Positions 11,034 to 23,742 of a stretch of DNA of 45,632 bases are shown here, piece by piece. Made by a program: the position numbers and the translations under genes. A model generated the notes under the pieces. That model searched no databases. It was not told where the DNA came from and saw only the letters and a list, made by a program, of their open reading frames with translations. Source of the DNA: Alphaproteobacteria bacterium (GTDB lineage: Bacteria > Pseudomonadota > Alphaproteobacteria > Micropepsales > Micropepsaceae); NCBI GenBank assembly GCA_028865545.1, contig JAGWJY010000029.1:1-45632 (forward strand), written 5' to 3'. Position 1 is the stretch's first letter. The number at the start of each line of letters is the position of its first letter.

Positions 11034-11816
11034 ATGCTGCTCGCCATCGACGCCGGCAACACCAACATCGTCTTCGCCGTTCATGACGGCAAGGACATCC
11101 GTTGCGAATGGCGGGCGGTGACCGAGACCACCCGCACGGCCGACGAATACGCCGTCCTGCTGCAGCCTTTGCTGCAGCTCAACGGCCTGGAATTCGCCGA
11201 TCTGCATTCCGCCATCATCGCCACTGTGGTGCCCGCGGCGTTGTTCGACCTGCGCCAGCTCTGCCGGCGCTATCTGAATTGCGAGCCGCTGGTGGTGGGC
11301 GATCCCGACGTCGATCTCGGCATCGGTGTGCAGGTCGACCGCCCGGAAGCGGTGGGCGCCGACCGGCTGGTCAACACCGTTGCCGCGCATGACCGCTACA
11401 AGGGCGCGCTGGTGGTGGTGGATTTCGGCACTGCCACGACCTTCGACATCGTCGGCGAGAACGGCGATTACGAAGGCGGCGTCATCGCGCCCGGCGCCAA
11501 TCTCTCCGCCGAGGCGCTGCACAAGGCCGCCGCCATGCTGCCGCGCGTCGCCGTGGCGCGTACGCAATCGGTGATCGGCAAGGATACCGTGCCCGCCATG
11601 CAGTCGGGATTGTTCTGGGGCTATATCGGCTTGATCGAAGGTCTGCTGGCGCGCATCAAGGAAGAATATGGCAAGCCGATGACGGTGATAGCCACCGGCG
11701 GCCTCGCCAAGGTGTTCCACAAGCAGACTGCCGCCATCGACCATCTCGACCCGGATCTCACCATCCGCGGCCTGATCCTGATCCACGCGCGCAACGCGGG
11801 GAAACGACCGGCGTAA
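11034..11816 (+). CDS. coaX: Type III pantothenate kinase
   Basis: This 260-residue cytoplasmic kinase carries out the first step of coenzyme A synthesis, phosphorylating pantothenate. It belongs to the ASKHA fold; visible motifs are the N-terminal phosphate loop [13 protein letters not shown] (4-16), the GADRLVN segment and [13 protein letters not shown]. The ATG is 3 bases after birA. Its stop codon TAA shares one base with the rnj ATG (taATG). Length matches the family. The type III enzyme normally needs a monovalent cation and is not feedback-inhibited by CoA (family knowledge). Confidence 0.95.
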
Positions 11817-13474
11817 TGGCTTCACGCTCCCGCGACGACGAACTCGTTCTTCTCCCGCTCGGCGGCGCGGGCGAGATCGGCATGAACTTCAACGCCTACG
11901 GCTTTGGTCCGTCCGACGAGCGCAAATGGATCGTGGTCGATTGCGGCGTGCTGTTCGGCCGCGAATCCGCCACGCCGGGCGTCGACGTCATCATGCCTGA
12001 CATCTCCTATCTCGCCGAGCAGCGCCGGAACGTGCTCGGCATCGTCGCCACGCACGCCCATGAAGACCATATCGGCGCCATCCATTACCTCTGGCCGACG
12101 CTGCGCTGTCCGGTCTACGCCACGCCTTTCACCGCGCGACTGATCGCCGGCAAGTTGGAGGAGGCGGGTCTGACGCAGAAGGTGCGCGTCAACGCCGTGC
12201 CGCTGCACGGCAGGCTGACGCTCGGCCCCTTCGACATCGAATTCGTCTCCATCACCCATTCGATTCCGGAGCCCAACGCGCTCGCCATCCGCACGCCGCT
12301 CGGCTTGGTGGTGCACACGGGCGACTGGAAGATCGATCCCGAGCCGCTGGTCGGCGAAGCCACCGACGTCAACGCCTTCCGCAAGCTGGGCGACGAGGGC
12401 GTGCTGGCCACCGTCTGCGATTCCACCAACGCGCTGGTGGCGGGCGAGTCCGGTTCCGAAGCCACGGTGCGCGATGCCTTATCGAAGCTGATCGGCACGC
12501 TGAAGGGCCGCGTTGCCGTCACGTCTTTCGCCTCCAACATCGCCCGTCTGGATTCCATCGCCAGGGCGGCGCGCGCCAACGGCCGCGAGATCGCGCTGGT
12601 CGGACGCGCCATGCACAAGCTGGTCTCGGCCGCCCGCGACACCGGCTATCTGGCGGATTTTCCCAACGTGCTCGACGAGGAAGAAGCCGCCCGGCTGCCG
12701 CCGCGCCGGATTCTCTATCTCTGCACCGGCAGCCAGGGCGAGATGCGCGCCGCGCTCACCCGCATCGCCGCGGACGAAAACCCCAACGTCAAGCTCGGCC
12801 CCGGCGACACGGTGATCTTCTCATCGCGCATCATTCCCGGCAACGAGCTGGCGATCTATGCGCTGCACAACAAGCTGGCGGCGATCGGCGTTGAGGTCCT
12901 CTCGTCAGACGATCATTTCGTGCACGTCTCCGGACATCCGGCGCGCGACGAGCTGGCGCAGATGTATCGTTGGACGCGGCCGCAGATTGCCGTCCCCGTG
13001 CACGGCGAGTTGCGCCACATGACGGCCCATGCGCGTCTCGCCCGTTCGCTGCAGGTGCCGCAGGCGGTCAATGTCGAGAACGGCCAGATGCTGCGTCTGG
13101 CGCCAGGCCGCGCCCAGGTCATCGACGAAACACCGTCGGGCCGTGTCCATCTCGATGGCCAGGTGCTGATCTCCGAAGGAGCCGGCCTCACGCGCATGCG
13201 CCGCGCACTCAGCTTCGCCGGCATGATCGCCGTCACGCTGGTGCTCGACGGCAAGGGCAGGGTGGTCGCCGACCCGGCCATCGTGCTGGAGGGCATTCCC
13301 GAGCCTGTGCACGAAGCCGTGCGCGAAGCGGTGGAGGCTGCGATCAATCGTTACGATCCAAGACGCGGCGCCGAGGAAAAGCTGCGTGAGACCGTCCGCC
13401 GTGCCGCCCGCGGCGCCGCTGACGACGCCTGGGGCAAGAAACCCGTGACGCGGGTGGAAGTGGTGTGGGTATGA
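11816..13474 (+). CDS. rnj: Ribonuclease J
   Basis: This 552-residue metallo-beta-lactamase/beta-CASP nuclease takes part in rRNA maturation and mRNA decay, with endo- and 5'-exonuclease activity in characterised homologues. The metal site HAHEDH is at residues 80-85, followed by the VHTGDWKIDP segment. The beta-CASP domain is in the middle, with SSRIIPGNE, and the VHVSGHPARDEL motif follows; a C-terminal domain completes the protein. It overlaps coaX by one base. It appears to end the long nuo-birA-coaX unit, since a 160-base gap follows. Confidence 0.95.
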   Translation: MASRSRDDELVLLPLGGAGEIGMNFNAYGFGPSDERKWIVVDCGVLFGRESATPGVDVIMPDISYLAEQRRNVLGIVATHAHEDHIGAIHYLWPTLRCPVYATPFTARLIAGKLEEAGLTQKVRVNAVPLHGRLTLGPFDIEFVSITHSIPEPNALAIRTPLGLVVHTGDWKIDPEPLVGEATDVNAFRKLGDEGVLATVCDSTNALVAGESGSEATVRDALSKLIGTLKGRVAVTSFASNIARLDSIARAARANGREIALVGRAMHKLVSAARDTGYLADFPNVLDEEEAARLPPRRILYLCTGSQGEMRAALTRIAADENPNVKLGPGDTVIFSSRIIPGNELAIYALHNKLAAIGVEVLSSDDHFVHVSGHPARDELAQMYRWTRPQIAVPVHGELRHMTAHARLARSLQVPQAVNVENGQMLRLAPGRAQVIDETPSGRVHLDGQVLISEGAGLTRMRRALSFAGMIAVTLVLDGKGRVVADPAIVLEGIPEPVHEAVREAVEAAINRYDPRRGAEEKLRETVRRAARGAADDAWGKKPVTRVEVVWV

Positions 13475-13591
13475 ACCTCAATTGCCATCGCCTGCGAATG
13501 CCAGCCATCCCGTTGAATTCTGTTTGGATCGTGAATGTGTCGCGAGGCCAAGTGTCATCGTCTAGAGGATAGTTCTAGGATCGCCTGGGTT

Positions 13592-13607
13592 GCCCGCATT
13601 CGCGGGC
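13592..13607 (+). terminator. GC hairpin between rnj and mce, possible weak terminator
   Basis: GCCCGC-ATTC-GCGGGC is a perfect 6-bp stem with a four-base loop, about 118 bases after the rnj stop and 28 before the mce start. No T-run follows, so it is not a textbook intrinsic terminator; it may act as an mRNA 3'-end stabiliser or be a leader structure of mce. Confidence 0.3.
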
Positions 13608-13634
13608 TGTGACACCGGGTTTTGGGAGCACACC

Positions 13635-14033
13635 ATGATCGGCCGTCTCAATCACGTCGCCATTGCGACCTCGGACCTTGCCAAATCGGCCGCCATCTAT
13701 CGCGACGTGCTCGGCGCCAAAGTATCGGAGCCGCTGGCGTTGCCCGATCACGGCGTCACCTCGGTGTTCGTCGAACTGCCCAACACCAAGATCGAATTGC
13801 TGGAACCGCTCGGTGAAGCCTCGCCGATTGCTGGATATCTCAAGAAGAACCCGAACGGCGGCATGCATCATGTCTGCTACGAAGTCGACGACATCCTCGC
13901 CGCGCGCGACTGGCTGAAGGCCAATGGCGCCACGGTGCTCGGTGAGCCGCGCATCGGCGCCCATGGCAAGCCGGTGCTGTTCCTCCACCCCAAGGATTTC
14001 GCCGGCACGCTGGTCGAACTGGAGCAGGCATGA
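13635..14033 (+). CDS. mce: Methylmalonyl-CoA epimerase
   Basis: This 132-residue vicinal-oxygen-chelate enzyme interconverts the R and S forms of methylmalonyl-CoA in propionate metabolism. Candidate metal ligands are H7 (RLNHVAIATSDL), E54 region (NTKIELLEPLG), H78/H79 (GGMHHVCYEVDD) and E128 (LVELEQA), matching the family order. The chosen ATG has GGGAG seven bases upstream; a TTG 45 bases earlier in frame would add a non-homologous extension. The stop overlaps the next gene as ATGA. No mutase gene is in the window. Confidence 0.93.
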   Translation: MIGRLNHVAIATSDLAKSAAIYRDVLGAKVSEPLALPDHGVTSVFVELPNTKIELLEPLGEASPIAGYLKKNPNGGMHHVCYEVDDILAARDWLKANGATVLGEPRIGAHGKPVLFLHPKDFAGTLVELEQA

Positions 14034-14257
14034 TCAACTTCATTGTCCATGAGGCCGTGCTCGTCAGCGCCTTCCTGGTGCTGTGGTTCCTGGCGTTTTT
14101 CTGCTTGTTGCCGGTCGGCCTCGGCGAAGTCGATCCGCAGACCGGTGCGCCGCTGCATCCCTATCTCGGTCGCAAGGCACTGATCGCCACCGCCATCGCC
14201 GTCGTGCTGTGGATCGCGTTCTACGCGCTGATCGCACTGCACATTGTCGATCTGTGA
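14030..14257 (+). CDS. DUF1467 family small membrane protein
   Basis: This 75-residue protein has two transmembrane helices (about 8-30 and 51-72) joined by a short loop with GEVDPQTGAPLHPYLGRKAL. It matches the DUF1467 family that in alphaproteobacteria sits between mce and proS; its role is not known. It overlaps mce by four bases (ATGA), so the two are co-translated. Here proS is displaced by about 4.2 kb, which breaks the usual neighbourhood. Confidence 0.85.
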   Translation: MINFIVHEAVLVSAFLVLWFLAFFCLLPVGLGEVDPQTGAPLHPYLGRKALIATAIAVVLWIAFYALIALHIVDL

Positions 14258-14827: not shown

Positions 14828-16120
14828 CTAAGTCCCCCAGGCGATCTTGGCGACGAAGGCGAGCGCGATGACAACGACGGCCGCATTCACATCGCGCCAG
14901 CGCCCGGAGATCAGCTTGATGGCCACATAGGCGATGAAGCCGATACCGATGCCGGTAGCGATCGAATAGGTGAAGGGGATGGCGAGCGCAGTGAGCAGGG
15001 CGGGGGCGGCCTCCGTCATGTCGTCCCAATCGATATCCTTCAGCCCCTTCGCCATCAGCGCCGCCACGAAGACGAGGGCGGGGGCGGTCGCGTAAGCCGG
15101 CACGGCGCCGGCCAGCGGGCTCAACACCAGACTGAGCAGGAATAGAATACCGACGACCACCGCCGTCAGTCCGCTGCGCCCGCCTGCCTGGATACCGGAT
15201 GCACTTTCGATATAGGCGGTGACGGGCGAGGTGCCGAGCGCGGCGCCGATCATCGTGCCGACCGCGTCGCTGGTCAGTGCGCGTCGCGCATTCTTCAGCC
15301 GCCCATTCTCATCGAGCAGCTTTCCCTGATAGGCCACGGCGGTCAGCGTGCCGGACGTGTCGAGCATGTCGACCAAGAGGAACACCAGCACGCTGGTGAG
15401 GATTGCTTCGCCGGCGGCGCCATTGAAATGCATCGCCAGGAAGGTCGGTGCGATGGAAGGCAGCGGCGCGGAAAGCACGGGCGGTGCCTGCAGGCCGAAA
15501 GCGATGGCCGCGCCCGTGGCGCCGACGATGCCGAGCAGCACCGCACCGATCACACCGCGCGCCGCCAGTGCGAAAATGACGATGAAGGCGCCCGCCGCGA
15601 TCAGCACTTTGGGATCGGTGAGGATGCCGCCTTGCACCAGCGTATCGGCACTGGCCACCACCACGCCGGCATTCTCCAATCCGATCAGCGCCAGGAAGAA
15701 GCCGATGCCCGCTGCGATCGCCAGCTTCAGGCTGTGCGGCAATGCGTTGATCAGCCATTCGCGCGCCGGGGTGATGGAGATGCCGACGAACAGAATGCCG
15801 GAAAGAAACACGCAGCCCAGCGCCAGCCGCCAGTCGCCGTTCAGCGCCGGCACCACGGTGTAGGCGAAGTAAGCATTCAGCCCCATGCCGGGCGCCAGCG
15901 CCACGGGCAGCTTGGCGTACAACCCCATCAGCAGCGTCGTGAGGCCTGCAGCGAGGCAGGTGGCGACGAACACCGCGCCCTTATCCATGCCGGCCGCCGA
16001 CAGGATCATCGGATTGACGAACATGATGTAGGCCATGGTGAAGAAGGTCGTAGCGCCGGCCACGAACTCGCGCTGCACAGTGGTGCCGTGCGCTTTCAGA
16101 TCGAAGAATGCGTCGAACAT
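14828..16120 (-). CDS. NCS2/AzgA-type purine permease
   Basis: This 430-residue inner-membrane protein belongs to the AzgA branch of nucleobase transporters (COG2252 type), which import adenine, guanine or hypoxanthine with protons. Typical segments are AGATTFFTMAYIMFVNP near the N-terminus, LPVALAPGMGLNAYFAYTV, and GTSPVTAYIESASGIQAGGR in the middle; about 12 hydrophobic helices are present. The start chosen (cat at 16118-16120) follows a GGGGG Shine-Dalgarno; the frame is open 12 codons further upstream. The exact base transported cannot be told. It lies alone on the minus strand within the segment that separates DUF1467 from proS, with a structured leader. Confidence 0.9.
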   Translation of the reverse strand: MFDAFFDLKAHGTTVQREFVAGATTFFTMAYIMFVNPMILSAAGMDKGAVFVATCLAAGLTTLLMGLYAKLPVALAPGMGLNAYFAYTVVPALNGDWRLALGCVFLSGILFVGISITPAREWLINALPHSLKLAIAAGIGFFLALIGLENAGVVVASADTLVQGGILTDPKVLIAAGAFIVIFALAARGVIGAVLLGIVGATGAAIAFGLQAPPVLSAPLPSIAPTFLAMHFNGAAGEAILTSVLVFLLVDMLDTSGTLTAVAYQGKLLDENGRLKNARRALTSDAVGTMIGAALGTSPVTAYIESASGIQAGGRSGLTAVVVGILFLLSLVLSPLAGAVPAYATAPALVFVAALMAKGLKDIDWDDMTEAAPALLTALAIPFTYSIATGIGIGFIAYVAIKLISGRWRDVNAAVVVIALAFVAKIAWGT

Positions 16121-16184
16121 TTGCCCCCGCCGCAGATGCATGCAAATCGGCAACATAGGGGAAGTGGCGGCGGCCCCAAAACAC

Positions 16185-16228
16185 GAAAGGCCGGGCGCCG
16201 CCCAGCCTTTCTGCCGCGATTACCGCGG
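16185..16228 (-). promoter_or_regulatory. Two hairpins in the leader of the purine permease
   Basis: On the minus strand two stem-loops precede the permease start by 65-108 bases. The first is CCGCG-GTAAT-CGCGG (16228-16214). The second has a 7-bp stem GAAAGGC/GCCTTTC (16211-16205 with 16191-16185) enclosing a 4-bp GGGC/GCCC stem, followed on that strand by GTGTTTTGGGG. The second resembles an attenuator with a short U-run. I could not match a known purine or xanthine riboswitch core, so the role is inferred from position only. On the plus strand the first hairpin is followed by AATTTT and could be a terminator. Confidence 0.4.
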
Positions 16229-16343
16229 AATTTTCTCCCCGAACTTGGCCGTTCTTAACCGGAGGCCTTACCGTCCGTTTATCGCTGTGTGTGATACTGG
16301 AATTACTGGGAAATGTCACGAAACTTTGGTGATTGGGGCGAGT

Positions 16344-16697
16344 ATGCGGCGAAATAAAGGCAGGTTTTCAGCTAGCCTATTGCTTTTACTGGTATTGTCC
16401 CCGGTGTCATTTGCCTGGGCGGGGACGATTGCCCCCAAAGAACGTGTCCCCAAGGCCACAGCCCCCGCACAATGTGATCCGGACCTCGACAGCCCGGACT
16501 ATGTCGGTGGCGTCGATGTGAACGGCAATCGAATCGTCCCGGCGGATGTCGGTGGCGGCGTGGGGGTAGACCTCAGCCATGTGACCGTCACGCCGGTGAT
16601 GAGGCCGGGCGGCCAGCGCCCAGATATCATCGTCCAGGGTGTGAAATTCGGCCCCGCCGATCCGCCCTGCGTCTCGCGCGACCAGCCGGGCCACTAG
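16344..16697 (+). CDS. Small secreted protein of unknown function
   Basis: The 117-residue product begins with a clear Sec signal peptide (charged MRRNKGR, hydrophobic SASLLLLLVLSPVSF, then AWA, cleavage near residue 26). The mature part, about 90 residues, is rich in G, P, D and V and has two cysteines (C43 and one near residue 109) that could form a disulfide. The segment SPDYVGGVDVNGNRIVPADV looks like a conserved motif of short alphaproteobacterial hypothetical proteins, but I know no function. The ATG is preceded by GGGGCG. The next gene, also secreted, starts 36 bases after the stop, so the two are probably co-transcribed. The first part of the gene is lower in GC than its neighbours. 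Confidence 0.7.
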   Translation: MRRNKGRFSASLLLLLVLSPVSFAWAGTIAPKERVPKATAPAQCDPDLDSPDYVGGVDVNGNRIVPADVGGGVGVDLSHVTVTPVMRPGGQRPDIIVQGVKFGPADPPCVSRDQPGH

Positions 16698-16733
16698 CTT
16701 GACTCCACACCGTCCTGCCCGGACCGTGGCGTC

Positions 16734-18368
16734 ATGCGTGTTCTGGCATCCGCGCTTCTGATCCTGTGCCTGAGCCTTCCGGCGGCGCATGCGGCCGGGA
16801 CCTGGCACATCCTCAAGGACCATTGGTCGGCAGCCGATGAGAAGGGTTTCGGCCAGTTCGTCGCCGCCATCGGCGCCAGCAATTGCAGCTCGTCGGAAAG
16901 CTGTCTGCGCGATCCGGCCAATCCCTACCGGGCCAGCGACAAGCATTTCGTCGACATCGACGTCGACTGCGCCAAGTGGCCGTATCTGCTGCGCGCTTAC
17001 TACGCCTGGAAGAACGGCCTGCCGTTCTCCTATGTCGATGCCATCAGCGGCTCGGGCGACAATCTGCGCTTCACCAAGACTTCGAACCGCGCCGTCGGAC
17101 GCCGCAATCTGATCGACCATGGCGACGGCATCAACGGACCGGCGGTGATCCGCGAGATGCTCGATACGGTGTTCTCCGGCACCTACCGCATCGACGCCGC
17201 CGAGCATCGCGGCGTGCTGTCGGATTTCTATTCGCCGGCGCTTGATCCGCAGTCGATTCATTCCGGCACGGTGATCTACGACATCAACGGCCATGTCGGG
17301 ATCGTCTACAAGGTCGATGGCAATGGCCGCATCTTCTACATGGATGCCCATCCCGACTTCACCATCACCCGCAGCGTCTATGGCGCGCAGTTTGGACAAA
17401 GCCCGCTCAAGCTCGGCGGCGGGCTGAAAAACTGGCGGCCGCTCAGGCTGGTGGGCGCGCACCGCGACAAGCATGGGCGCTATTTCGGCGGCCATATCGT
17501 GTTCGCCGAGAACGATCAGATTCCGGATTTCTCGCTGGTCCAGTATGTCGGCACCGAGCCCAATCCGAAGCGGGACGTGAAGCAGGCGAAGTTCGTCTAC
17601 AACGGCGAAGAGCTGGGCTTCTACGAATATGTCCGCGCCGCCGTCTCGGGCGGCAAGATGACGTACAACCCCGTCTACGAACTCAAGATGACGATGAAGA
17701 CGCTGTGCAACGATCTCAACGATCGCGCACAATATGTGAACCTTGCCATCTCTGACGGCATCGACAGGAAGCCGCATCCGTCCAGCCTGCCGGACGACAT
17801 CTTTTCGTCGGATGACAATATCTGGGAGAGCTATGCCACGCCGGCGCGCGATGCCCGCACCCGCGCCGCCTTCGCGCAATTCTACAAGGACATGGCCGAC
17901 ATGATTGACATGTGGGTCCATCGCGATCCGCGCATCGTCTATGACGGCTACAATCTGCGGAAGGACCTGCTTAAGGCTTACAACACGCAGTCCAAGGCCT
18001 GCACCATCACCTATCTCAATTCCGCCAAGCGCCCCGTGGCGATGACCTTCGACGACCTCCTGCACCGCGTCTATGCGATGTCGTTCGATCCCTATGACTG
18101 CATCGAGCTGCGTTGGGGAGCGAGCGGCGACGAGCGCGACAGCTGTCCGGAGTCGAAGACCAAGCTGCGCTGGTACGAAGCCGAGCGGCCCTTGCGCGAA
18201 CTGGCGGATCGCACCGGCAGAGCCCATACCGGCTTCGATCTGGCCGAACTGGAACACCGCGCGACGAGTTCGGGCGTCGCCGATCCGCCGCCGGTCGACG
18301 TCAAGACGCTGATCGAGACGATGCCCTATCAGGTACCGCTGCGGGCGATGCGGCCGGTGGGGCGGTAA
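16734..18368 (+). CDS. Secreted protein, possible papain/NlpC-like cysteine hydrolase
   Basis: The 544-residue product has a signal peptide (MRVLASALLILCLSLPAAHA, cleavage near 20-21), so it is probably periplasmic or exported. I do not recognise a named family. A cysteine at the start of a helix (DCAKWPYLLRAYYAWKNG, C79) followed far downstream by GHVGIVYKV (H187) and MDAHPDF (D204, H206) is the order Cys-His-Asp seen in papain-fold NlpC/P60-like enzymes; the His motif sits on beta strands preceded by SGTVIYDING, as in that fold. This is inference from pattern, not proof. The C-terminal 300 residues contain several further cysteines (near 328, 422, 448 and 463) and charged helices without a recognised domain. 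It follows the small secreted gene by 36 bases and precedes proS by 63. Confidence 0.75.
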   Translation: MRVLASALLILCLSLPAAHAAGTWHILKDHWSAADEKGFGQFVAAIGASNCSSSESCLRDPANPYRASDKHFVDIDVDCAKWPYLLRAYYAWKNGLPFSYVDAISGSGDNLRFTKTSNRAVGRRNLIDHGDGINGPAVIREMLDTVFSGTYRIDAAEHRGVLSDFYSPALDPQSIHSGTVIYDINGHVGIVYKVDGNGRIFYMDAHPDFTITRSVYGAQFGQSPLKLGGGLKNWRPLRLVGAHRDKHGRYFGGHIVFAENDQIPDFSLVQYVGTEPNPKRDVKQAKFVYNGEELGFYEYVRAAVSGGKMTYNPVYELKMTMKTLCNDLNDRAQYVNLAISDGIDRKPHPSSLPDDIFSSDDNIWESYATPARDARTRAAFAQFYKDMADMIDMWVHRDPRIVYDGYNLRKDLLKAYNTQSKACTITYLNSAKRPVAMTFDDLLHRVYAMSFDPYDCIELRWGASGDERDSCPESKTKLRWYEAERPLRELADRTGRAHTGFDLAELEHRATSSGVADPPPVDVKTLIETMPYQVPLRAMRPVGR

Positions 18369-18431
18369 GACCACTGGCGCTTGTGCCTAAGCTTGCCTAG
18401 AAAGGGGCGGAATCTTGTATCGGTATCGTTC

Positions 18432-19757
18432 ATGCGCCTGTCCCGCTATTTCCTGCCGCTCCTGAGAGAAACGCCCACCGAGGCGCAGATCGTCTCCCAC
18501 CGCCTGATGCTGCGCGCCGGGCTGGTCCGGCAGGAGGCCGCCGGCATCTATGCTTGGCTGCCGCTCGGCTTCCGCGTGCTGCAGAAGATCGAGCAGATCG
18601 TCCGCGAGGAGATGAACCGGGCAGGGGCCGTCGAGATTCTCATGCCGACGCTGCAGTCCGCCGATCTGTGGCGCGAGAGCGGGCGCTACGACGCCTATGG
18701 CAAGGAGATGCTGCGCATCAAGGACCGTCACGAGCGCGAACTGCTCTACGGGCCCACCAACGAGGAAATGGTCACCGAGATCTTCCGCAGCTATGTGCGC
18801 AGCTACAAGCAGCTGCCGATGAACCTCTATCACACGCAGTGGAAATTCCGCGACGAGGTGCGCCCGCGCTTCGGCGTCATGCGCGGCCGTGAGTTCCTGA
18901 TGAAGGACGCCTATTCCTTCGACATCGACCAGGCCGCCGCGCGCCGCAGCTACAACAGGATGTACGTCGCTTATTTGCGCATGTTCGCGCGCATGGGCCT
19001 GAAATCGATTCCGATGCGCGCCGAGACCGGCCCCATCGGCGGCGACCTTTCGCATGAATTCATCGTCCTGGCCGAGACCGGCGAGAGCGGCGTCTTCTGC
19101 CACAAGGATCTGCTCGACATGCCGATCCCCGGCGAGGACACCGATTTCGACAGCGATCTGGAACCCATTATCAAAGGCCGTACTGACCTCTACGCCGCCA
19201 CCGAAGACGTGCACGATCAGGCGCGTTTCGAAGCCGAGGTGCCGGAAGACAAGCGTCTTTCCGCCCGTGGCATCGAAGTGGGGCAAGTCTTCTATTTCGG
19301 CACAAAATACTCCGCGCCGATGAAGGCAGTGGTAGCCGGTCCCGACGGCAAAGAAGTTCCGGTCGAAATGGGCTCCTACGGTGTGGGCGTCTCGCGGCTG
19401 GTCGGCGCGATCATCGAAGCCTCGCACGACGACGCCGGCATCGTCTGGCCGGAACCGGTGGCGCCGTTCGGCGTTGGCTTGGTCAATCTCAAGGCAGGCG
19501 ATGCCAAGACCGACGCCGCCTGCGACGACCTTTATGCGCGCCTGACGGCAGCCGGCAAAGATGTGCTTTACGACGACACTGCCGAACGTCCGGGGGCGAA
19601 GTTCGCCAGCATGGATCTGATCGGTCTGCCCTGGCAGGTCGTGGTGGGGCCGCGTGGTCTGGAAAAGGGTTTGATCGAGATCAAGAACCGTAAGACCGGT
19701 GCCAAGGAGGAAATGTCTGTCGATGCCGCGGTGAACAAGCTTACCTTACGCGGATAG
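18432..19757 (+). CDS. proS: Prolyl-tRNA synthetase, short form
   Basis: This 441-residue class II enzyme charges tRNA-Pro. Class II motifs are present: the dimer motif region [19 protein letters not shown], motif 2 around [19 protein letters not shown], and motif 3 [16 protein letters not shown], followed by an anticodon-binding domain. Between motifs 2 and 3 there is only a short linker instead of the roughly 180-residue editing (INS) domain of the long bacterial form, as is usual in alphaproteobacteria. The start chosen gives [15 protein letters not shown], the family N-terminus; a good Shine-Dalgarno is not visible close to it (GAAAGGGG lies about 25 bases upstream). Confidence 0.95.
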
Positions 19758-19913
19758 GGATTTTTCGACTCGCCGACCAAAGTATCCATTGTCAACGCTA
19801 CCACGCGCCGCATGCGCTGCGCGTTCTCGTCGTACCGCGTCATTTTGGGCCTGCGCTAGAATTGCGCCTTGATCCGCGCCAAGCGCGGTAAAATCGAAAA
19901 ACGGGGGCTAACC
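19758..19913 (+). promoter_or_regulatory. proS-fhs intergenic region with leader hairpin
   Basis: These 156 bases hold no gene. ACGCGC (19803-19808) and GCGCGT (19819-19824) form a 6-bp stem with a 10-base loop that could end the proS transcript, though no T-run follows. CCGCGC-CAA-GCGCGG at 19874-19888 is a perfect 6-bp hairpin followed by TAAAATCG, then the GGGGG ribosome-binding site of fhs at 19903-19907. I found no clear -35/-10 pair and no recognised riboswitch. Confidence 0.35.
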
Positions 19914-21593
19914 GTGACGACTGTCCGCAGCAATATCGAAATCGCCCGCGATGCCAAGATGAAGCCGATCACCGAGGTTGGCCGCAAGATCGACATCCCC
20001 GACGGCGCGCTCCTCCAATACGGCCGCACCAAGGCCAAAGTGTCTTACGACTTTATCGAGAGCTTGAGCGGGAACAAGGACGGCAAGCTCATCCTGGTGA
20101 CCGCGATCACGCCGACCTTGGCGGGAGAGGGCAAGACCACCACGACGATCGGGCTCACCGACGGCCTCAATCGCATCGGCAAGCGCGCCATCGCCTGCAT
20201 CCGCGAACCGTCGCTCGGGCCGTGCTTCGGCATGAAGGGGGGTGCGGCGGGCGGCGGTTACGCGCAGGCCGTGCCGATGGAAGACATCAACCTGCATTTC
20301 ACCGGCGATTTCCATGCCATCACCGCCGCCAACAATCTCTTGGCTGCGATGATCGACAATCACATCTATTGGGGCAACGAACCGCATATCGACACCCGCC
20401 GCGTTGCATGGCGCCGCGTCGTCGACATGGACGACCGGGCGCTTCGCTCCATCGTCAATTCGCTGGGTGGCCCCGCCAACGGTTATCCGCGCGAGGACGG
20501 TTTCGACATCACCGCGGCCTCCACGGTGATGGCGATCTTCTGTCTGGCGACGGACCTGAAGGATCTGGAACGCCGGCTCGGTAACATCCATATCGGCCAG
20601 ACGCGCGACCACAAATACGTCACGGCCCGCGACATCGGCGCGGCGGGCGCCATGACCGTCCTGCTGAAGGACGCCTTCATGCCCAATCTGGTGCAGACGC
20701 TGGAGAACAATCCGGTGTTTGTGCACGGCGGCCCTTTCGCCAATATCGCGCATGGCTGCAATTCCGTGATCGCCACCAGGACGGCGCTCAAGCTCGGCGA
20801 TTACGTCGTCACCGAAGCGGGCTTCGGCGCCGATCTGGGTGCCGAGAAGTTCTTTGACATCAAGTGCCGCAAGGCGGGCCTCAGACCGGCGGCGGCTGTC
20901 GTCGTTGCGACGGCCCGGGCGCTGAAGATGCACGGCGGGGTGGCGCGCGAAGACCTGAACAAGGAGAACGTCGCGGCGGTTGTCAAAGGTTACGAGAACC
21001 TGGCGCGCCACATTGCCAATGTGAAGAAATTCGGCGTGCCGCCGATTGTCGCCATCAATCGTTTTGTTTCCGATACCGATGCCGAAATCGCCGCCATTGA
21101 GAAGATGATTGCGGAGTTGGGTTGCCGGGTGGTGCTTTGCACCCATTGGGCCGACGGCGGGCGGGGTGCCGAGGAATTGGCGCGGCGCGTCGCCGATCTG
21201 TGTGAAACCGGTCAGGCGGATTTCAAGCCGCTCTATCCTGACGAGATGCCGCTTTGGGAGAAGATTCGGGCGGTGGCCACGTCCATTTACGGCGCGGGCG
21301 ATGTCACGGCCGATAAAACCGTGCGCCAGCGCATCGACGATCTGCAGAAGGAAGGCTACGGCCATTTCCCGGTTTGCATCGCCAAGACGCAGTATTCCTT
21401 CTCGACCGATCCGCAGCTCAAGGGCGCGCCGTCCGGCCATACGTTACATGTGCGTGAGGTACGGTTGTCGGCGGGTTCCGAATTCCTGGTGGTCATTGCC
21501 GGCGACATCATGACGATGCCGGGTCTGTCGAAGACGCCGGCCGCCGTTGCCATCCATATCGACGCGCAGGGTCGCGTCGAGGGCTTGTTCTGA
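19914..21593 (+). CDS. fhs: Formate--tetrahydrofolate ligase
   Basis: This 559-residue ATP-dependent enzyme makes 10-formyl-tetrahydrofolate from formate and THF, feeding one-carbon units to purine, Met-tRNA formylation and serine metabolism. The P-loop [10 protein letters not shown] is at 66-75, followed by [19 protein letters not shown], typical of the family. The start is GTG seven bases after GGGGG; this gives the usual N-terminus ([14 protein letters not shown]) and length, while the frame is open 15 codons earlier without homology. It lies between proS and lolC, which in many relatives are adjacent, so it appears to be an insertion in the conserved order. Confidence 0.95.
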
Positions 21594-21633: not shown

Positions 21634-21761
21634 CCGCCTTCACGCAAGCGGTAAGCCCGACGACATGGCTGTATTTGACATCGACCGGACGCTCGTTTCT
21701 GACACCGCTGTAATCACCGACGAACGATCGAGCACAGTCGGACAATCTCGTGGGCGGACGC

Positions 21762-23033
21762 ATGGCGCGGCAATCATCTGACACCAGGCCGTTCGCGCCG
21801 TTCGAATGGATGCTGGCGCTGCGCTATTTGCGCGCCAAGCGGGCGGAAAGCTTCATCTCGGTCATTTCGGCGATTTCGCTGGTTGGCATCGCGCTGGGCG
21901 TGGCGACGCTGATCATCGTCATGGCGGTGATGAATGGATTTCGCCACGAGCTTCTGTCGCGCGTCCTGGGGCTGCAAGGCCATGTGGTCGTGCAGGGCAT
22001 CGACGGCAATCTGCCCAATTTCGACTCCGTGGCCGATCACGTGCGCAAGGTCGCGGGCGTTACACTGGTGGCACCCATTGTCGACGGTCAGGCGGTGGCG
22101 AGTTCGGACAGCATCAACACGCCGGTTTATGTTCGTGGCATGCGCCTCCGCGATCTGAAGGCGTTCACTATTGTCTCAAAGACGCTGTCGCCGGGCGCGC
22201 TGGCGCATTACAGCGACGGCGACTCGGTGATCATCGGCGCGCGCGTCGCGCAGAAGCTGCGGGTGGTCCCAGGCATGTCCGTCACGTTGCTGGCGCCGCA
22301 TGGCAACATCACGCCCTTCGGCATCACACCGCGCGTCAAGACCTACACCGTTGCCGGCACGTTCGACGTCGGCATGAGCGAGTATGACCAGACCTTCGTC
22401 TTCATGCCGCTGTCGGAAGCGCAACTCTACTTCAACATGGCCAACACGGTCACCGGTCTGGAGGTGATGGTCCGCGACCCGGATCAGGTCGACGGCATGG
22501 TCGCCCCGATCGGCCGCGCCGCTGGGCCCTATGCGCGCATCGTCACCTGGAAGGACATCAACTCGACCTTCTTCGGCGCCATCGAGACGGAACGCAATGT
22601 GATGTTCCTGATCTTGACGCTGATCATCCTGGTGGCGGCGCTCAATATCGTCTCCGGTCTTTACATGCTGGTGAAAGACAAGTCGTCGGACATCGCCATC
22701 TTGCGCACCATGGGCGCGACGCGCGGCGCCATCATGCGGGTGTTCCTGATCGCGGGTGTCAGTGTCGGCGTCATCGGCACCTTCCTCGGTTTTCTGATCG
22801 GCGTCGTGTTCTGCGACAACATCGAGAGTATCCGCCAGTTCCTGTCCTCTCTCACGGGCACCACGTTGTTCGACCCTACGATCTATTTCCTGAGCAAGAT
22901 GCCGGCCGAGATGGATCCCATGGAGGTCACCGCCGTCGTGATGATGTCGCTGGTACTTACCTTTCTTGCCACGCTCTATCCGTCCTGGCGCGCGGCGCGT
23001 CTCGATCCGGTGGAGGCCTTGCGGTATGAGTGA
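21762..23033 (+). CDS. lolC: Lipoprotein-releasing ABC transporter permease LolC/E
   Basis: This 423-residue inner-membrane protein is the permease of the Lol system that extracts outer-membrane lipoproteins from the inner membrane. It has the MacB/FtsX topology: one N-terminal helix (about 32-58, after the EWMLALRYLRAKRAESFISV cap), a large periplasmic domain, and three C-terminal helices ending at YPSWRAARLDPVEALRYE. Alphaproteobacteria usually have this single permease in place of separate LolC and LolE. The ATG at 21762 was chosen; a GTG four codons earlier is possible. The stop lies inside the start of lolD (8-base overlap). Confidence 0.93.
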   Translation: MARQSSDTRPFAPFEWMLALRYLRAKRAESFISVISAISLVGIALGVATLIIVMAVMNGFRHELLSRVLGLQGHVVVQGIDGNLPNFDSVADHVRKVAGVTLVAPIVDGQAVASSDSINTPVYVRGMRLRDLKAFTIVSKTLSPGALAHYSDGDSVIIGARVAQKLRVVPGMSVTLLAPHGNITPFGITPRVKTYTVAGTFDVGMSEYDQTFVFMPLSEAQLYFNMANTVTGLEVMVRDPDQVDGMVAPIGRAAGPYARIVTWKDINSTFFGAIETERNVMFLILTLIILVAALNIVSGLYMLVKDKSSDIAILRTMGATRGAIMRVFLIAGVSVGVIGTFLGFLIGVVFCDNIESIRQFLSSLTGTTLFDPTIYFLSKMPAEMDPMEVTAVVMMSLVLTFLATLYPSWRAARLDPVEALRYE

Positions 23034-23742
23034 TGCCTTCGCCGCTGCCGCTTTGCGTCTGAGTGCGGTTACGCGCACCTACAAGGAGGGTGAAGGTCAG
23101 CTCGAGGTCTTTCGCAATTTGAATCTGGTCCTGGCGCCGGGAGAGCTTGTGGCCTTGGTGGGGCCGTCGGGTGCCGGCAAGTCGTCGCTGCTGCATATGG
23201 CTGGTCTGCTCGAAGCGCCGACATCGGGCGAAATCATCATCGGTGGCGCGTCGGTCTCGGCTTTGTCGGACATCGAACGCACCCGTATCCGCCGCGACAA
23301 GATCGGCTTCGTCTATCAGGCCCATTATCTGCTGCCGGAATTCACGGCGCTGGAGAATATCGTCATCCCGCAGTTGATCGCCGGCAAACCGCGCAAGGCG
23401 GCGGAAATCGAAGCGCTGCGCCTGCTGACGCTGATGGGTCTGCAGGATCGCAAAACGCATCGTCCGTCGCAGCTTTCCGGCGGCGAGCAGCAGCGCGTGG
23501 CGATCGCCCGCGCCCTGGCAAACGGTCCAAAAATCCTGCTGGCCGACGAGCCGACCGGCAATCTCGACGAACGCACGGCCGCGGGTGTTTTCGACGCGCT
23601 GATGGTCATCGTGCGCGCCGAAGGGTTGGCGGCGCTGGTGGCGACCCATAATCTGCAGCTTGCGGCGCGGATGGACCGCGCTCTGATCCTTCACGAAGGC
23701 CGTCTGATCGACGGCGGTAAACTGGGAGTTGGTGCCACATGA
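23026..23742 (+). CDS. lolD: Lipoprotein-releasing ABC transporter ATPase
   Basis: This 238-residue ATPase drives lipoprotein release with the LolC/E permease. Walker A GPSGAGKSS is at 46-54, the Q-loop in FVYQAHYLLPEF, the ABC signature LSGGEQQRVAIARAL from 150, Walker B with LLADEPTGNLD (171-181), and the H-loop in VATHN. The start overlaps lolC by 8 bases and the stop overlaps the methyltransferase gene as ATGA. Confidence 0.95.
   Translation: MSDAFAAAALRLSAVTRTYKEGEGQLEVFRNLNLVLAPGELVALVGPSGAGKSSLLHMAGLLEAPTSGEIIIGGASVSALSDIERTRIRRDKIGFVYQAHYLLPEFTALENIVIPQLIAGKPRKAAEIEALRLLTLMGLQDRKTHRPSQLSGGEQQRVAIARALANGPKILLADEPTGNLDERTAAGVFDALMVIVRAEGLAALVATHNLQLAARMDRALILHEGRLIDGGKLGVGAT

Follow-up and report, generated by a model that had tools for sequence, protein, structure and literature searches.

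Positions 1 to 45,632 of contig JAGWJY010000029.1 (assembly GCA_028865545.1), from an alphaproteobacterium of the family Micropepsaceae, form the stretch of DNA analysed here, called the window. At 16,344 to 18,368 it carries two open reading frames (ORFs) on the plus strand, a small one followed by a large one, with a gap of 36 bases between them. The large protein is probably an exported, papain-like peptidoglycan cysteine hydrolase of the CHAP type, and the small protein an older resident of the surrounding gene block rather than its dedicated partner. The initial annotation had described two co-directional ORFs with signal peptides, and residues C79, H187 and D204 in the large protein. All of these are found at the places described, and the N-termini of both proteins look Sec-type by eye:

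16344-16697, plus strand: small ORF, 117 amino acids (aa), with C44 and C109; divergent member of an alphaproteobacterial family with a motif around Y-x-x-G-V-D-x-x-G-x-x-V-x-P-A-D and two conserved Cys
16344..16424, plus strand: signal peptide of the small protein, about 27 aa, Sec-type by eye
16734-18368, plus strand: large ORF, 544 aa
16734..16796, plus strand: signal peptide of the large protein, about 21 aa, Sec-type by eye

Both ORFs are coding and under purifying selection. Nonsynonymous and synonymous divergences (dN/dS) from the near relative at locus L043 are 0.143/0.363 for the small gene and 0.084/0.437 for the large gene; from the near relative L044 they are 0.223/0.655 and 0.051/0.535. 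In the comparison with L045, the values for the large gene are 0.171/0.696, and saturation at synonymous sites leaves none for the small gene. By this comparison the small gene evolves faster than the large one. A minus-strand ORF at 16407-18374 (655 aa) overlaps both genes and is considered their shadow rather than a gene. A scan of the locus finds 5 terminator-like sites, with 1.7 expected. In library scans the small protein matches nothing in Pfam or NCBIfam and the large protein nothing meaningful, its sole row being HTH_58 (E 0.21, 12 of 23.8 bits); a PADLOC search returns nothing at E <= 1. Sequence-profile searches of the PDB yield nothing useful for the small protein (a single row at E 0.38) and, for the large protein, 0 matches in one search and a single row at E 5.5 in another. 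Across Pfam, NCBIfam, PDB sequences and non-subscription literature, the last searched partly too broadly, we recognised no description of either family.

Predicted active site and fold of the large protein

Searched for across the GTDB genome collection, the large protein has 327 relatives among 385 candidate stretches, and the best 80 were kept as loci. Alignment A2 joins the window to 77 of these 80; L094, L116 and L117 contain internal stops and were dropped. A smaller alignment, A1, has 29 rows and leaves out L018, L027 and L032. C79 is kept in all 77 A2 rows that reach its position, and H187, H206, P207 and D208 are invariant in 78/78. The catalytic set proposed initially, C79, H187 and D204, thus stands in its first two members and falters in the third. 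Residue 204 is Asp in 68/78 rows and Ser in 10/78, the least conserved of the residues named, and H206, which like D208 was absent from the initial set, is the likelier third residue. The ten Ser rows (L096, L097, L098, L102, L111, L112, L113, L118, L121 and L122) make up one branch of the tree, which holds Parvibaculum-type loci. Counted from H187, residue 204 is His+17 and residue 206 is His+19 in 78/78 rows, and the alignment reaches down to 40% identity with C79, H187 and H206 invariant. Further conserved cysteines are C51 and C57 in the N-terminal part and C325, C423, C456 and C471 in the C-terminal region.

The same spacing is described for the CHAP domain of LysGH15 (PMC4022735), which has a quartet of C54, H117, E134 and N136, in which E134 is at His+17 and N136 at His+19. 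C54 lies at a helix start and H117 at a strand start, E134 closes the next strand, and N136 is in the loop after it; mutants of C54, H117 and N136 are inactive, and E134A retains part of the activity (PMC4022735). The AlphaFold model of the large protein, calculated from A2, has a mean predicted local distance difference test score (pLDDT) of 88.0 and a predicted template modelling score (pTM) of 0.84. It places C79 just before helix 81-94, H187 at the opening of strand 187-194, D204 near the end of strand 200-205 and H206 just after it, with the next strand at 210-215. The CHAP arrangement of a Cys before a helix and a His at a strand start is therefore present, with both residues invariant, and the polar third residue at His+19 is H206 in 78/78. 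Since residue 204 is Ser in ten rows, the likeliest triad by analogy with LysGH15 would be C79-H187-H206, with D204 as an auxiliary residue. The predicted domains and sites are:

16797..17453, plus strand: N-terminal papain-like domain, residues ~22-240, from the model and structural matches
16968..16970, plus strand: codon of C79, predicted nucleophile, 77/77
17292..17294, plus strand: codon of H187, predicted catalytic His, 78/78
17343..17345, plus strand: codon of D204, at the position of LysGH15 CHAP E134 (His+17), probably auxiliary
17349..17351, plus strand: codon of H206, at the position of LysGH15 CHAP N136 (His+19), predicted third triad residue
17481..18323, plus strand: C-terminal region, residues ~250-530, largely helical, with conserved C325, C423, C456 and C471

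Structural comparison points weakly in the same direction. VIA-align, used as a second look at the Foldseek list, gives 82 chains with Z of 2 or more, 50 of which are listed. Among these 50, the 14 that fall within residues 23-280 look papain-like, mostly from their titles, all with Z <= 4.9; they include 2lrj and 8ej5, which we take to be papain-like. Among them are the CHAP domains of LysK (Z 4.9, root-mean-square deviation (rmsd) 5.1, 130 aligned) and LysGH15 (Z 4.9, rmsd 4.6, 129 aligned) and PlyC (Z 4.4, rmsd 4.1, 123 aligned). The other papain-like rows include a staphylococcal amidase, Gsp amidase, trypanothione synthetase and C39-type domains. The agreement among the 14 rows is telling; the Z values prove nothing alone. 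In the Pfam scan, 40 of the 78 members match CHAP at E <= 1 (best E 0.004), each runner-up family is matched by 2, and NlpC_P60 (PF00877) is absent among the 19 families matched at this threshold. In a local search with the alphaproteobacterial CHAP profile the members score -0.5 bits on average (maximum 5.5) and shuffled sequences -3.4 (maximum 4.0), where 164 of 390 shuffled sequences gave any score. Alignment A3 comprises 27 alphaproteobacterial CHAP proteins from 30 fetched loci, without L172 and L173, whose slices contain a stop, and L175; 24 of the 27 carry Asn at His+19, and His, Trp and Gln occur there once each. The genome of the window has three PF05257 places of its own. The initial suggestion of a papain- or NlpC-type enzyme is most likely right, from the conservation of C79 and H187, their placement in the model and the 14 rows, but the structural matches behind it are weak.

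Several results weigh against assigning the protein to the CHAP type. The large protein of the window itself has no CHAP match in Pfam, and the best CHAP score among the 78 members, 18.0 bits, is under the curated cut-off of 26. Scanned singly, six of ten members show CHAP over the His segment only, with C79 not covered, and a local search of the 78 members with the alphaproteobacterial CHAP profile covers H187 in 68/78 and C79 in 0/78. The hhalign comparison of the large family with alphaproteobacterial CHAP gives a probability of 3.4% (E 0.013) over 27 columns. The distance from C79 to H187 is 104-113 residues in the family and 46-52 for the corresponding pair in CHAP. Foldseek finds no match for the model at E <= 0.001 in the PDB and none among the BFVD viral models, though CHAP-named rows recur in the latter. 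A Z of up to 4.9 could by itself reflect a common arrangement in the model, and rows on the C-terminal half outscore the CHAP rows (STAT, Z 6.4 vs 4.9, among the rows listed). Given the weak CHAP profile scores and the long Cys-His distance, the large protein is, as judged from its sequence, CHAP-like and outside the Pfam CHAP family. The remaining VIA-align rows listed all fall on or reach into the C-terminal half; STAT, the best of them, and other helical bundles were set aside as candidates for this half, being within the noise described for helical models.

The same papain-like fold could serve another chemistry, that of an amidase, an acyltransferase or a transglutaminase-type enzyme acting on an envelope protein, a polyamine or a lipid rather than on peptidoglycan. 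Chains of glutathionylspermidine amidase and trypanothione synthetase are among the structural rows, neither the large C-terminal part nor the longer Cys-His distance resembles the CHAP proteins used for comparison, and a C79-H187-D204 reading resembles transglutaminases. We regard this as a rather unlikely alternative: D204, a candidate for the transglutaminase-like Asp, is Ser in ten rows (D208 is invariant), and the Pfam families of the 78 members include CHAP recurrently and no transglutaminase model. It is improbable that the domain is catalytically dead and serves as a scaffold or binding module. The low sequence similarity to CHAP domains and the unusual His at the third position would fit such a role, but C79, H187 and H206 stay invariant over the whole range of identities, and E. 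coli Spr offers a precedent for a Cys-His-His site.

Distribution and neighbourhood of the two genes

The large protein represents, by its sequence matches, a lineage-restricted family. It is found in 32/61 genomes chosen as relatives (its own included), 31/37 of the same genus and 1/24 of the others. The class-wide sample has it in 13/385 genomes and 6/276 genera, and the phylum-wide sample in 1/289, which is the genome of the window. Named records among its relatives are Rhizomicrobium electricum (Micropepsaceae), Parvibaculum sedimenti (Parvibaculaceae) and Tepidicaulis marinus. The genome of the window holds three copies of the gene; the other two are 43% and 42% identical and lie on other contigs.

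The small protein is probably an old, widespread alphaproteobacterial protein, as its profiles suggest. A profile of the small proteins matches 136/372 genomes of the class, once in each; a profile of 57 wider homologues matches 143/372 class genomes and 104/272 genera. Where a genome has two rows with the wider profile and both are listed, they are nearby pieces on one contig, except in G181, where they lie on two contigs. The divergent same-genus members in G025 and G030 are missed by the wider profile and found by the first. In the phylum-wide sample the family occurs in 7/299 genomes, all within the class Alphaproteobacteria. The window form belongs to this wider family: hhalign of the window-group profile against the wider family profile gives a probability of 99% (E 2.7e-18), and the two Cys and the gene neighbourhood are shared. 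The wider alignment (A5) holds 57 of 59 relocated loci, without L225 and L263; the alignment of the window group (A4) leaves out L077 and also L075, which has no clear start. Scans of five wider homologues against Pfam and NCBIfam give nothing at E <= 1. AlphaFold models the Parvibaculum sedimenti homologue (L113) poorly (pLDDT 68.6, pTM 0.42), so no fold is assigned; the candidates obtained, release factors in Foldseek (E >= 0.16) and VIA rows with Z <= 3.6, were taken as noise.

The two genes lie in a conserved gene block, which has these members in the window:

11816..13474, plus strand: rnj (RNase J family), over the Pfam cut-off and below that of NCBIfam; upstream edge of the block
13590..14033, plus strand: mce (methylmalonyl-CoA epimerase)
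14030..14257, plus strand: DUF1467 protein, a small conserved protein
14828..16156, minus strand: Xan_ur_permease family transporter, presumably NCS2-type
18381..19757, plus strand: proS, proline--tRNA ligase, true start probably ~18432
21750..23033, plus strand: lolCE, lipoprotein-releasing ABC permease
22966..23742, plus strand: lolD-like ABC ATPase, best match LolD, below the cut-off of that model

At least one block gene (rnj, mce, DUF1467 or the permease upstream; proS, lolCE, lolD or dnaE downstream) is in place in 61/80 large-gene loci. The other 19 have none; 18 of these were sorted as lying elsewhere, with L103 (165 bases upstream) and L091 (a masked stretch upstream) doubtful among them, and L077 has too short a contig. 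The proS gene follows on the same strand in 36/80 large-gene loci and in 16/32 of those with the small gene. Because this pattern varies, a position of the large gene between the small gene and proS is true for part of the loci. In eight loci (L069, L070, L071, L072, L073, L075, L078 and L081) the only proS match is weak (21-24% identity) and lies downstream of the large gene but on the opposite strand, a pattern that would fit a relocation of proS or its replacement by a different synthetase. A formate--tetrahydrofolate ligase gene (19869-21593) separates proS from lolCE in the window and in L043 and is unmatched in the other 79 loci. For the small gene, 60 loci were picked by hand from 136 places, mostly the better-scoring ones and some cut by contig ends, and the gene was relocated in 59 of them (L237 failed). 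At least one of rnj and mce upstream or proS, lolCE and lolD downstream is in place in 53/59, and proS follows within 300 bases in 35/59. Upstream of the small protein, 22/59 of these wider loci have a recognisable DUF1467.

In 32/80 large-gene loci the small ORF lies just ahead of the large gene in the same direction, ending 37-282 bases before the large match; these distances are counted up to where the tblastn match begins, in some loci a point inside the gene. Two large-gene loci have an extra small match, taken as an artefact of non-coding frames. Among the 32 loci with both genes, 31 keep at least one block gene, the other being L077. The adjoining arrangement is found in Micropepsaceae and Parvibaculaceae. 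The small gene was not found in 48/80 large-gene loci, including all 18 sorted as elsewhere (L105, with 17 bases upstream, is uninformative on this point), and the large gene is within ~6 kb of the small gene in 0/59 relocated small-gene loci, L225 of G030 included. Two genomes of the same genus, G014 (95% complete) and G030 (100% complete), carry the small gene without the large one. On the tree of 78 large rows, explaining where the small gene occurs takes 9 changes, of which well-supported branches force 8; the split between the conserved site and other loci takes 2. This pattern reads as repeated loss of the small gene while the large gene stayed, given that the small family is both older and more widespread than the large one.

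The two genes thus occur independently, which speaks against the initial suggestion of a partner or inhibitor and the co-occurrence expected with it: each gene is routinely found alone, and the joint occurrence typical of an enzyme-inhibitor or toxin-immunity pair is lacking at 32/80 and 0/59. A dedicated two-gene unit, in which the small protein would inhibit, activate or target the large enzyme in the periplasm, fits the order and strand in the 32 loci, the apparent export of both proteins and, weakly, the absence of a sigma-70-like promoter from 16150-18450 of the window (a scan given no weight, because 0.9 are expected by chance), but loci, wider genomes (143/372 for the small family vs 13/385 for the large) and tree all speak against it, and we reject it as very improbable.

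Some large-gene loci deserve separate mention. One relative, 44% identical at ~55% G+C, lies at 6001-7593 of L092, a record titled Bdellovibrionaceae, and may reflect transfer or mis-binning. Copies with internal stops or frameshifts (L027, L032, L094, L116 and L117) may be decaying or contain draft-assembly errors. In the paralogue loci L106 (7665-11359) and L115 (7670-11289), the large gene is convergent to genes for a TPR protein, two ExbD, an ExbB-type channel and TonB, named by Pfam in L106 and by eye in L115; a GtrA-type gene lies upstream in L106. Clusters of TPR/ExbD/ExbB/TonB-type ORFs recur in about nine large-gene loci. A second paralogue group lies near thrS (L107, from Pfam; L109, L114 and L119, from an upstream class II synthetase match), and the small gene is absent there. 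No clear function for the large protein emerged from the paralogue neighbourhoods of L106 and L107.

Proposed function and comparison with known families

In the reading that we consider probable, the large protein would be exported to the periplasm by its signal peptide. C79, at the start of its helix, would act as the nucleophile and H187 as the general base; H206 would orient H187, and D204 would assist. The enzyme would most likely cut or rearrange an amide bond of peptidoglycan peptides. Peptidoglycan is preferred as the substrate because exported bacterial CHAP and NlpC-type domains usually act on it. The C-terminal half (~250-530), with its four conserved Cys, may bind the substrate or regulate the enzyme. 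The small gene would be the older resident, passed down in many Alphaproteobacteria together with the rnj-mce-(DUF1467) / proS-lolCE-lolD block, and the large gene would have come beside it by insertion.

If this reading is true, the large family is a separate papain-like branch with a Cys-His-His triad and a C-terminal part of its own, and a likely activity can be offered for a protein that no Pfam or NCBIfam model covers. What is new, on sequence and model, is most likely a CHAP-type hydrolase in which Cys and His are further apart, the third residue is His and the extra C-terminal half has no assigned fold. The small family clearly merits annotation, with 143/372 genomes, one place per genome and mostly a conserved proS/lolCE block; as a small exported family in this block, it may be a more useful lead than the large enzyme. 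Tentatively, and with considerable doubt, we suggest that it is a class-wide, one-per-genome exported protein of envelope biogenesis, perhaps of lipoprotein release by lolCE-lolD, and that Micropepsaceae and Parvibaculaceae recruited a novel type of CHAP-like hydrolase with its own C-terminal domain to this place.

Among known systems, the large protein is closest to CHAP (PF05257; LysGH15, LysK), with which it shares the Cys at a helix start, the His at a strand start, the His+17/His+19 pair and, by weak structural matches, a similar domain arrangement. It differs in having His rather than Asn at His+19, ~55 more residues between Cys and His and an extra C-terminal part of ~300 residues, and its family stays below the Pfam cut-off with a match confined to the His segment. 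The alphaproteobacterial CHAP proteins occur in the same class and the same genome, but the large family is separate from them at the profile level. With the NlpC/P60 endopeptidases, represented by E. coli Spr, it would share the Cys-His-His order and a likely periplasmic location; the third residue is at His+12 in Spr and at +19 in the large protein. The small protein is homologous to the unnamed family of the rnj-mce / proS-lolCE-lolD block, with the same two Cys and the same neighbourhood, and its window form differs from the wider family in being shorter in the second half.

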